From the NCBI GenBank assembly GCA_024698925.1, contig JAILQO010000031.1, positions 1 through 64,000 on the forward strand: a DNA stretch of 64,000 bases. Reading direction: 5' to 3'. Of the stretch, positions 6,800 to 60,371 are shown piece by piece (the first letter of the stretch is position 1; the number at the start of each line of letters is the position of its first letter). The translations under genes and the position numbers were made by a program. The notes below the pieces were generated by a model that searched no databases, was not told the origin of the DNA, and saw nothing but the letters and a program-made list of their open reading frames with translations. The stretch comes from Bacteroidaceae bacterium. GTDB taxonomy: Bacteria > Bacteroidota > Bacteroidia > Bacteroidales > Bacteroidaceae.

Positions 6800-7768
6800 A
6801 TGTCTGAGGAAATATCCAACAAGTATCAACAAGTGTCAGTTATGAAATACGAGAAACTGTGTCGTGCCATAGAGGAACAACTGCATCGCGAGATGCACAC
6901 ACCCGCGGACTTTGAATACCTGTCTGAGCAATTGCAGAGACAGACGGGCGATTCCGTCAGCAGCACTACGCTCATGCGTCTATGGGGCTATCGTCCGTCT
7001 GTGACGGTGCGCACAAGTACGCTTGACATTCTGGCGCGTTTCATCGGTTATGAAGATTATACGCATTTCAATAGCGCCTGTATGGAAGAAGATGCACAGG
7101 CGGAACCAGCAGGCATCGTCGAGGAAGTCAAGGAGAAACCTTCCCGCTTCCACTACGGATACATGGCGGCAGCAGTGGCCGTCATTGTGGTCTGTGCCGG
7201 AATGTTTCTGTTTTTCAGCTTACGGTTCAGGCCCACTGAAGAAGTTGCGGCCCAGCGGTCCCAGCCTCATTTCATCACCAAACTGTCTGAACTGGGCAAC
7301 AACCGAAAATATCTTATTCATACACGCCGTGACCGGCGGGGTATCTTAGGTATTAGCAGTCGCCATCTGGCCAGTACCTACGGTATAGCCCGCTTTTATC
7401 ATTGTGATGAGCCCTCGCCTTTTGCACTCATTCAATACGAAGATAACTACTACCTGTATAGCGTGCAGGAAGACCTTTTCGTCAATGTCTTGCAATATCT
7501 GACCAATCAGCCCCTGCGACAAGATTTTGGCAAAGAGAACTGGTGCGCCTTTGATATTCGGCCGGAGAGAGGCTGCTTTGTCATCGATTTCAAGTCTCAT
7601 ACAAAAGTCTATACCCTGAATGTGAATGCAGGTGATGGTATCATCATCGATGATTGGGGCACCACCAACGGCACCTATGATGATGGCAATCTATTCATCC
7701 TGGAGGACGTTGGTCCCTTTGACCCTACAGAAGCTTTCATCCTATTACAAAACTCGCTGACAGACTGA
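6800..7768 (+). CDS. Single-pass membrane protein with N-terminal HTH-like cytoplasmic domain
   Basis: TM segment YGYMAAAVAVIVVCAGMFLFFSL; N-terminal EKLCRAIEEQLHREMHTPADFEYLSEQLQRQ; promoter ATACCTTTGC about 6778. Confidence 0.6.
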   Translation: MSEEISNKYQQVSVMKYEKLCRAIEEQLHREMHTPADFEYLSEQLQRQTGDSVSSTTLMRLWGYRPSVTVRTSTLDILARFIGYEDYTHFNSACMEEDAQAEPAGIVEEVKEKPSRFHYGYMAAAVAVIVVCAGMFLFFSLRFRPTEEVAAQRSQPHFITKLSELGNNRKYLIHTRRDRRGILGISSRHLASTYGIARFYHCDEPSPFALIQYEDNYYLYSVQEDLFVNVLQYLTNQPLRQDFGKENWCAFDIRPERGCFVIDFKSHTKVYTLNVNAGDGIIIDDWGTTNGTYDDGNLFILEDVGPFDPTEAFILLQNSLTD

Positions 7769-7817
7769 AAGTTGACAATATCAGTCTGTCGGCGAGTGGG
7801 GAATGTAATAGCGATGG

Positions 7818-28271: not shown

Positions 28272-28435
28272 ACGAAAAACGCAGCCTAACAGCGGACCCT
28301 CCCCTCACTCTCCCTGCGAGGGAGGGAGTGGTCACTGCTCAAGAAGTGAAATCACCCAAGAGAGAAGTGTCTGGTTTATCCTATGCTTCTCTTTTGTTTT
28401 TTTGACATCAAAACAATCATCATATCATAATGGCC

Positions 28436-31171
28436 ATGAGCAAAAACAACCAGTCAAATAGTAACCAGACTCCCCTCGCCCACGGGAGAGGAGTTGGGGG
28501 CGAGGCTTTGGGAAGTGTCTTCCGTTCACTCCTCCCAGACATCCTTGCCATCCTCTTCTTTGTGGCACTCTCCTTTGCCTACTTCCTCAAGCCTGTCAGC
28601 GAGGGACTTGTTCTGAAAGGTCACGATCATAGTGGTGGCGCAGGAGCAGCCTCTGAGATGGAGGCATATCGTGACAGTCACAACGGCGAGCGCACTCGCT
28701 GGACCAATACGCTCTTCTCGGGTATGCCTACCTATCAGATGGCGCCGTCCTATCCCTCCACAGAGAAGTTGCAGAAGGTAGAGAAGGTCTATAAACTCTT
28801 CCTGCCCGACTATGTGGTGCTGGTCTTTGTAATGCTGCTGGGATTCTACATCCTGCTGCGTGCCTTTGATTTCAAGGCTTGGATGGCTGCCCTCGGAGCT
28901 GTCCTGTGGGCGTTTTCCAGCTACTACTTTATTATAATAGGTGCAGGCCACATCTGGAAATTCTATACCTTGGCCTATATTCCACCAACCATTGCAGGTA
29001 TGGTTCTCTGCTATCGTGGCCGTTATGGCTGGGGACTTCTTGTCACCGCTTTCTTCATGGCGTTGCAGATTCTCTCCAACCATGTGCAGATGACCTACTA
29101 TTTCGCCTTTGTTATCGCCTTGATGGCGTTGGCAGAGCTTTTCGCTGCCATAGCCCACCCCCAGCCCCTCCCCAAGGGAGGGGAGAACGATGCCGCTGGC
29201 GAATCCAATGGAAATGAGTCCCCCTCCCTTGGGGAGGGGATAGGGGTGGGCCGCTGGCTCAAAGGTACCCTCACCTTCGCCCTCGGCTGCCTCATCGGTA
29301 TCGCCATTAACGCCTCCAATCTCTTCCACACGTGGGAGTACAGCAAGGAGACCATGCGTGGAAAGAGCGAGCTGACACAGAAGACCAAGGATGCTGCCGA
29401 CCAGACCAACAGCGGACTGGAACGCTCCTATATTACGGCCTGGAGCTATGGCATTGATGAAACCTGGACACTCCTCATCCCCAATGCCAAAGGTGGTGCT
29501 TCGCAGCCGCTCACGCAGAGCAAGACGGCGATGCAGAAAGCCAATTCCACCTATATGCCCGTTTATCAGAGCCTCGGGCAGTACTGGGGCGAACAGCCTG
29601 GTACCAGTGGTCCCGTCTATGTCGGAGCTTTCGTACTATTCCTCTTCATTTTGGGCTTTTTTATCGTGAAAGGGCCGATGAAATGGGCTCTCTTCATCGC
29701 TACGATTCTGAGTATCACGCTTGCCTGGGGTAAGAACTTCATGCCCTGGACCGACCTGTGGCTTGACTACGTGCCGATGTATGACAAGTTCCGTACCGTA
29801 GCCTCCATCCTCGTCATCGCCGAGTTTACGATACCCTTGCTCGCAATGCTCGCTCTACGTGAGTTAGTGAAAAATGAAAGAGTGATAAGTGGAAAATACA
29901 AGTTACCCTTCTTCATCTCTCTGGCTTTAACCGCAGGCCCTTGCCTATTGTTCTGGCTCATGCCTGATGTGTTCTTTGGCAACTATATCAGCAGTTCTGA
30001 GTCTTCGATGCTTCAGAATGCTGTAGCTCAAGGTTATATCCCGCAGGATATGCTGGCCAGTATTCTGGCTAGTATCAATGAGATGCGTAGCGCTGTCTTC
30101 TCTGCCGATGCAGGCCGTTCGTTGCTCATTATCCTGGTAGGTTGCGCTGTGTTACTCGCTTACCATTATAAGAAGATCAAGGCGTGGGCGATGGTGGCAT
30201 GTCTCATCGTACTCTGTACAGCCGACATGTGGGATGTCAACAAGCGTTATCTCAATGATGCCATGTTCTCGCAACCGCTGCCAGCCCAGCAGTTCTTCCA
30301 GAAGACACCTACGGATGAGGCTATCCTTCAGGACAGCGACCTCTACTATCGTGTCGTGAACCTCGCAGTCTCCACCTTCAATGACAATAGCACCAGCTAC
30401 TGGCATAAGAGTATTGGCGGTTACCACGCAGCCAAACTGCGTCGTTATCAGGAGCTCATAGAGGCCCATATCCAGCCGCAGCTCTTCACGCTCCATCGTG
30501 CATTAGCTGAGAGCGGTGGTCGTTTGGACAGTCTGGCAGGCGACAGCCTTTTCCCTGTCATCAATATGCTCAACACCAAGTATGCCATTGTGCCGCTTCA
30601 GGGTGGCCAGACGCTACCGATTCAGAATCCTTGGGCGATGGGCAATGCCTGGTTCGTGGATAACGTACTCCTCGCCTCCAACGCAGACGAAGAGCTCTCT
30701 CTCCTCGCCTCCATCAATCCTCGTCACACTGCTGCTGTCGATGTCCGTTTCCGCGATCAACTCCCCGATGCCTTTATCAGCGCTGGAGGGGTGACAGAAG
30801 CCACCTCGGAGGCCGTAGGAGGGGCCACCTCAGCCATTTCCCTCACCACCTACGAAGCCAACGCCCTCACCTTTGAGGCCAACACGGACCGTCAGCGCCT
30901 CGCTGTCTTCTCGGACATCTACTATCCAGGCTGGCAATGCACGATTGATGGTGAGCCAGCTGAGATTCTGCGTGCTGACTACGTATTGCGTGCCGTGGTC
31001 ATTCCTGAGGGCAAGCATACGATTGCGTTCCGCTTCGATCCCCAGAGTCTTCACACGACGGAGGCGATAGCTACCTCAGCCCTCATTCTCCTCCTCGTCC
31101 TGCTGTTGGCGCTTGTGGGCTGGAATGTCTGGAAACGGAAGGCCGCGAAAAATGATCTTCAAGGTAAGTAA
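28436..31171 (+). CDS. YfhO-family multi-pass membrane protein
   Basis: KGHDHSGGAGAASEM..., many TM segments, YYPGWQCTIDGEPAEILRADYVLRAVVIPEGKH C-terminal domain. Confidence 0.85.
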   Translation: MSKNNQSNSNQTPLAHGRGVGGEALGSVFRSLLPDILAILFFVALSFAYFLKPVSEGLVLKGHDHSGGAGAASEMEAYRDSHNGERTRWTNTLFSGMPTYQMAPSYPSTEKLQKVEKVYKLFLPDYVVLVFVMLLGFYILLRAFDFKAWMAALGAVLWAFSSYYFIIIGAGHIWKFYTLAYIPPTIAGMVLCYRGRYGWGLLVTAFFMALQILSNHVQMTYYFAFVIALMALAELFAAIAHPQPLPKGGENDAAGESNGNESPSLGEGIGVGRWLKGTLTFALGCLIGIAINASNLFHTWEYSKETMRGKSELTQKTKDAADQTNSGLERSYITAWSYGIDETWTLLIPNAKGGASQPLTQSKTAMQKANSTYMPVYQSLGQYWGEQPGTSGPVYVGAFVLFLFILGFFIVKGPMKWALFIATILSITLAWGKNFMPWTDLWLDYVPMYDKFRTVASILVIAEFTIPLLAMLALRELVKNERVISGKYKLPFFISLALTAGPCLLFWLMPDVFFGNYISSSESSMLQNAVAQGYIPQDMLASILASINEMRSAVFSADAGRSLLIILVGCAVLLAYHYKKIKAWAMVACLIVLCTADMWDVNKRYLNDAMFSQPLPAQQFFQKTPTDEAILQDSDLYYRVVNLAVSTFNDNSTSYWHKSIGGYHAAKLRRYQELIEAHIQPQLFTLHRALAESGGRLDSLAGDSLFPVINMLNTKYAIVPLQGGQTLPIQNPWAMGNAWFVDNVLLASNADEELSLLASINPRHTAAVDVRFRDQLPDAFISAGGVTEATSEAVGGATSAISLTTYEANALTFEANTDRQRLAVFSDIYYPGWQCTIDGEPAEILRADYVLRAVVIPEGKHTIAFRFDPQSLHTTEAIATSALILLLVLLLALVGWNVWKRKAAKNDLQGK
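29154..29250. repeat. 30-bp near-perfect inverted repeat inside yfhO-family gene
   Basis: CCCACCCCCAGCCCCTCCCCAAGGGAGGGG (29154-29183) vs CCCCTCCCTTGGGGAGGGGATAGGGGTGGG (29221-29250), 28/30 complementary. Confidence 0.95.
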
Positions 31172-52007: not shown

Positions 52008-55052
<3,045 letters not shown>

Positions 55053-60202: not shown

Positions 60203-60371
60203 GAGGTCTAATTACGCGTCCGAAAACGGTTAGTTGATGTGTTTCGTTGCGCTAAGGTAGTGCTTTTTTCTGATATGTTCCAAACTTTAATCTACTTTTT
60301 GCACAAAAAGGGTAGTTTTTGTAAAAAAAGCACTACTTTTGTGCCATAAATAATCACTAAAAGTTCAGCTT

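Follow-up and report, generated by a model that had tools for sequence, protein, structure and literature searches.

A palindromic element in frame within a yfhO-family gene, and the re-use of protein loops by several such families in rumen Bacteroidales

How does a long, nearly perfect inverted repeat come to lie in frame inside the gene for a membrane protein? The window, that is, the whole 64,000-nt stretch of DNA that we analysed, belongs to a rumen Bacteroidales assembly (2.8 Mb in 97 contigs, 85% complete) and holds one such gene, a member of the yfhO family. The reading that we favour, with a probability of about 0.82, is that yfhO holds one of the dispersed copies of a short, non-autonomous palindromic element, translated in a tolerated loop, and that families of such elements re-land in the same loops and then decay.

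The insert in yfhO and the same loop in relatives

The yfhO reading frame is open throughout its 913 codons, its product matches the Pfam family YfhO (PF09586, E = 2.5e-10), and orthologues are present in 60 of 61 relatives. A sequence-only reading of the window had described an in-frame inverted repeat with a 37-nt spacer, placed in a plausible loop after a transmembrane helix. We confirmed the repeat, its frame, its spacer and its location, while its size needed correction by one base at each end: the insert spans 99 nt instead of 97, with arms of 31 nt instead of 30 that are 94% complementary (Table 1). Each arm contains a small palindrome of its own (CCCTCCCCAAGGGAGGG), and the 33 residues encoded by the insert read AHPQPLPKGGENDAAGESNGNESPSLGEGIGVG. 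Chance is a poor explanation for the motif, since the arm pattern matches four times in the window against 0.03 matches expected. Compared with dinucleotide shuffles, the insert folds strongly both as DNA (z −7.15) and as RNA (z −5.93). In the AlphaFold model of YfhO (mean pLDDT 81.8), pLDDT drops below 50 at residues 249-266, between helices 219-242 and 273-293, so that the insert residues are predicted to form a disordered link between two membrane helices, in agreement with the loop placement.

Table 1. Coordinates of the palindromic features discussed and of the yfhO host gene within the window
Feature	Position	Strand	Details and basis
yfhO-family membrane protein gene, host of the insert	28430..31171	+	ORF, 913 aa; Pfam; orthologues
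Family A palindromic element, inverted dimer	29153..29251	+	99 nt = 33 codons; YfhO residues 242-274
Left half-unit	29153..29183	+	Tail GCCCACCCCCAG and internal palindrome CCCCTCCCCAAGGGAGGGG
Spacer of the yfhO dimer	29184..29220	+	BLAST match across the spacer; alignment
Right half-unit, inverted	29221..29251	-	Inverted-repeat arm; dispersed copies
A-like half-unit near the yfhO N-terminus, peptide TPLAHGRGVGGEA	28470..28506	-	By inspection
Probable family B half-unit in yfhO, decayed, peptide TEATSEAVGGAT	30794..30826	+	Inspection; protein alignment
Family D element, ATGACGA heptamer inverted repeat	53094..53210	-	In frame in a GH2 beta-galactosidase-like ORF, 52008-55052 (-)

The closest named relatives of this yfhO are in assemblies of rumen and gut Prevotellaceae/Bacteroidaceae. 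The empty site that the sequence-only reading proposed to look for is present in most of the approximately 53 orthologues surveyed, in which the anchors flanking the loop are 54-66 residues apart, versus 86 in the window protein. The same reading had held that a loop shared across the family would speak against insertion; only two orthologues carry an insert of this kind, L153 with family A as in the window and L049 with the related subfamily A'.

The loop is occupied by other palindromes in other relatives: family B in L152 and L156, family C in L159 (its sole carrier among the loci examined) and family D in L155, L181, L319 and L330. Representatives of all four families fold strongly at this position (z −7.2 for A in the window, −5.4 for B in L156, −5.4 for C in L159 and −5.0 for D in L155). 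Folding is weak or absent in L153 (z −1.6) and L181 (z −0.6), and the inserts of L044 and L046 are unstructured; these four look like decayed copies. Loop length varies in the clade, and L158 and L047 carry expansions that are not palindromic.

Two further YfhO loops, near residue 488 and at residues 784-799, contain assorted inserts in relatives, and protein alignment places the probable family B half-unit of the window protein (Table 1) where L152 has a full family B element. Near residue 799, YfhO of L051, L052, L165 and L172 has a repeat-like insert, TPSNSPLKGE...EASPLRGGLEGS, possibly representing a further coding-palindrome family. By inspection, repeat-like peptides are also found in the N-termini of several YfhO orthologues.

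Dispersed copies in frame in conserved genes

A genome-wide search with the arm, also suggested by the sequence-only reading, bore out dispersal: about 40 half-units lie within two mismatches of GCCCACYCCYRRCCYCTCCC in the same genome, either singly or as inverted dimers. Half-units of this family, A, measure 31-34 nt and dimers 97-104 nt, and the arm motif is found in 46 of the 61 genomes of the genus, with a maximum of 73 copies. The yfhO spacer matches those of copies on contigs C53 and C89 at 80-82% (BLAST) and aligns with that of the orthologous L153 insert; given these related spacers, the family A dimer appears to be one unit. A G directly outside the arm, seen in 62 of the 68 copies whose flanks were inspected, is probably part of the element. 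This inspection revealed neither a target site nor a target-site duplication, and there was no sufficiently close empty site at the DNA level.

At least ten family A copies in this genome are in frame in conserved genes with Pfam matches, encoding a TPP enzyme, a GlcNAc epimerase, an SSF symporter, AlaRS, PspC, a UmuC-type polymerase, HisB, a DUF3987 protein, MFS_2 and CydB. The arms are read as SPSLGEGIGVG or AHPQPLPKGGE. In genome G003, 20 of 29 copies lie within long ORFs.

Site re-use extends beyond YfhO. One AlaRS site, empty in other genomes, is occupied by family A in the window's own genome, by A' in G066 (z −6.8) and, in G013, by an inverted repeat of the GGGGCAA type (z −2.6). Likewise, a single ThrC site carries A' in L394 (G003) versus B in L376 (G085), while the SSF symporter and PspC have A in the own genome versus B in G079, G016 or G003. 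When 826 kb of the own genome, taken as an unbiased sample, were scanned for inverted repeats, five clear palindromes belonging to three families proved to lie in frame: in YfhO and PspC (A), in a beta-galactosidase and a TrmB-like methyltransferase (D), and in a protein of 979 aa (CCATTGT type), the methyltransferase and the 979-aa protein being named by inspection. The beta-galactosidase element lies in the window (Table 1); it has arms of 31-36 nt and its peptide follows VWDWVDQGL. Families C and D are inverted arrays of heptamer-like units and may have a different origin. Inverted repeats with arms of 17-21 nt at 7752-7797 and 60249-60344 of the window may be terminators or other elements.

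Family B, whose 91-nt dimers share a conserved spacer, offers the clearest case. It occurs in 13 of the 61 genomes, with many copies in G085. ORFs contain at least 35 of the 37 copies of G085/G086 and about 45 of the 52 counted elsewhere, though the second set partly duplicates the first, G064 and G086 being apparently one genome. Since most of a bacterial genome is coding, a high intragenic fraction is by itself unremarkable; the ORF criterion being weak alone, the case for translation within genes rests on Pfam matches, frame and register. Dozens of housekeeping genes carry family B in frame; the hosts that Pfam confirmed include PurL, Era, GcvP, CarA-CarB, a class II tRNA synthetase and Mrp, as well as PyrG (CTP synthase) and ThrC (threonine synthase). 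The arms are read in one register in nearly all copies, as APLSSPEGDT / EAPSGAVGGA or the mirror form, and most copies encode xAPLSSPEGDT...TEAPSGAVGGA; other frames are open too in many copies. Length changes preserve the frame: in 44 of 46 dimers the two hairpin cores are separated by a multiple of 3 nt, and this holds for 12 of the 14 dimers of variant length (binomial p ~8e-5), which argues that the spacers are translated and not skipped, spliced or excised. In gcvP of L352, L426, L430 and L440 the B arms, in both mirror forms, flank a native-looking FTIDFGK, hinting that the arms can be gained separately.

The fixed register, the frame-preserving spacers and what would be an inert linker invite a further suggestion, that family B is adapted to protein interiors and that its lineage persists mainly within housekeeping proteins. 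We regard this as speculative and rather unlikely; if true, the lineage supplies new loops to such proteins.

Proposed origin and possible mobilisation of the inserts

In the scenario that we propose, two inverted hairpin half-units around a spacer would have moved as an element into yfhO. Intragenic copies would survive if they landed in frame within a flexible surface loop, where the ribosome would translate them into a hydrophilic linker rich in Gly, Pro, Ser and Glu. Because few loops per protein tolerate some 30 extra residues, the same loops would be hit repeatedly by unrelated palindrome families in different species, and old copies would decay through mutation. We infer that the copies transpose, and the proteins carrying them presumably work normally. 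With palindromes both in the same YfhO loop and in loops of essential enzymes, selfish DNA would seem to become part of proteins regularly in these bacteria.

Could a functional mRNA or DNA hairpin instead be kept at the yfhO position, for example one that causes ribosome pausing between the membrane helices, with structure conserved across differing sequences? The strong folding of four dissimilar sequences at this one loop, and of the window insert as RNA (z −5.9), would fit such a role. However, insert and structure are both absent from most orthologues, the structure decays in L153, L181, L044 and L046, and these families also turn up in soluble enzymes and at further loops of YfhO, which renders this explanation improbable. 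Strong hairpins within conserved, partly essential genes are also what one would see if the palindrome were left untranslated, through ribosome bypass or through RNA or protein splicing, as with mitochondrial byp elements, introns or inteins. The family B spacer lengths and the single register of nearly all its arms argue against this, in-frame stops and splice domains are absent, and 30-33 residues are too short for an intein; we consider it very improbable.

We give as little credence to an ordinary lineage-specific loop expansion that is G/C-rich and self-complementary by chance. The loop is indeed variable in length, with the non-palindromic expansions of L158 and L047 as examples, but the same sequence occurs tens of times genome-wide, in unrelated genes and on both strands, and the motif is far too frequent in the window for chance. 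For the family A and B inserts, loop expansion was rejected on account of the dispersed copies. Least probable of all is an artefact of this fragmented metagenome-assembled genome: assemblies made independently in different studies carry an identical or similar insert around these codons (L152, L156, L153 and L155), and every such insert is in frame.

What might move the elements that we take these inserts to be? Y1/IS200-type transposases have at least three relatives encoded in the own genome. One of these, a Y1_Tnp-like gene on contig C58, matches the NCBIfam model REP_Tyr_transpos with E = 1e-7, under the family cut-off, and contains the DHVH, WQ and Y..NP motifs listed for TnpA_REP class 2 (PMC6006769). 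Across genomes, the number of RAYT-like matches correlates with family A copy number (Spearman 0.57, p = 2e-6, kinship ignored), and all 13 genomes bearing family B are RAYT-positive (p = 3.5e-4, kinship ignored). None of the 20 RAYT loci examined contains an element (flanks of about 1.5 kb, contig ends permitting), and family A copies are missing from seven RAYT-positive genomes; for these two reasons the mobiliser is unproven. That a Y1 (RAYT-like) transposase moves families A and B is therefore a tentative proposal, which we hold to be somewhat less probable than its converse. The RAYT-like transposase encoded at L073 218-1480 (G000:C58) has AAGVHGNGEEN repeated four times in tandem after the HUH motif and before the Tyr motif; in-frame REPs have been reported at the corresponding place in TnpA_REP subclass 2.4.

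If the favoured reading is right, protein-coding palindromes, formerly described as a Rickettsia/Wolbachia peculiarity, are common in rumen Bacteroidales and belong to several unrelated families. The phenomenon thereby becomes comparative: AlaRS, ThrC, CTP synthase and Era are among the proteins in which dozens of natural insertions can be set against the uninterrupted state, so that one could test directly which loops admit mobile DNA, whether an insertion alters function and by what means short palindromes move. It would also explain odd low-complexity linkers such as PLPKGGE, SPSLGEG and APSGAVGGA, which may confuse annotation and structure work.

Comparison with known palindromic elements

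Among known systems, REP/BIME sequences resemble the half-units in architecture. Both are imperfect palindromes in many copies (20-40 nt in REPs; 31-34 nt and about 40 copies here), both consist of a short hairpin with a tail and pair in inverted orientation (here as dimers in YfhO, AlaRS and PspC), and the genus encodes Y1 transposases of the RAYT (TnpA_REP) superfamily. REPs have been described inside genes, including in-frame copies within tnpA_REP (PMC3733652, PMC6006769). Unlike REPs, the foot of family A is CAGC, CGAC, CAAC or TATC and not GTAG/GGAG or CGTC, although some family B left arms read CGTC, partly within the stem. Moreover, REPs are mainly extragenic, whereas A and B are often inside genes, and the copies described here do not flank RAYT genes (20 loci). 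As family A thus differs from REPs in foot, in location and in its relation to RAYT genes, we class it with the protein-coding palindromes, in another phylum. The A and B dimers, units of 91-104 nt in which terminal inverted repeats enclose a conserved spacer, also resemble MITEs. The coding palindromes of Nematomorpha mitochondria (PMC6649704) are likewise long inverted repeats embedded in coding genes, but they are mitochondrial and were not presented there as a dispersed element re-using loops; kinship by descent is not expected.

The closest parallel is with the palindromic elements of Rickettsia (RPE-1 to RPE-10) and Wolbachia (PMC3767692, PMC2229807, PMC10969869), which are about 100-150 nt long, lie in frame in conserved genes and encode a conserved peptide at solvent-exposed positions, with possible insertion hotspots. 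The elements described here share the dispersed palindrome of similar length (97-104 nt for A dimers, 91 nt for B), the in-frame insertion into unrelated conserved genes, with hosts confirmed by Pfam, and the conserved peptide, encoded by the arms of A and B. Since they occur in a different phylum, we do not claim membership by descent; by inspection their sequences are unlike, they consist of two REP-like half-units in inverted orientation, the same loops are shared by several unrelated families, and family B is almost wholly intragenic and read in one register. In the literature searched, subscription papers being outside its reach, we found no report of protein-coding palindromes in Bacteroidales. 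What is new here, in comparison with the Rickettsia and Wolbachia elements, is thus that protein-coding palindromes occur in a further phylum and that several families of them occupy common loops.
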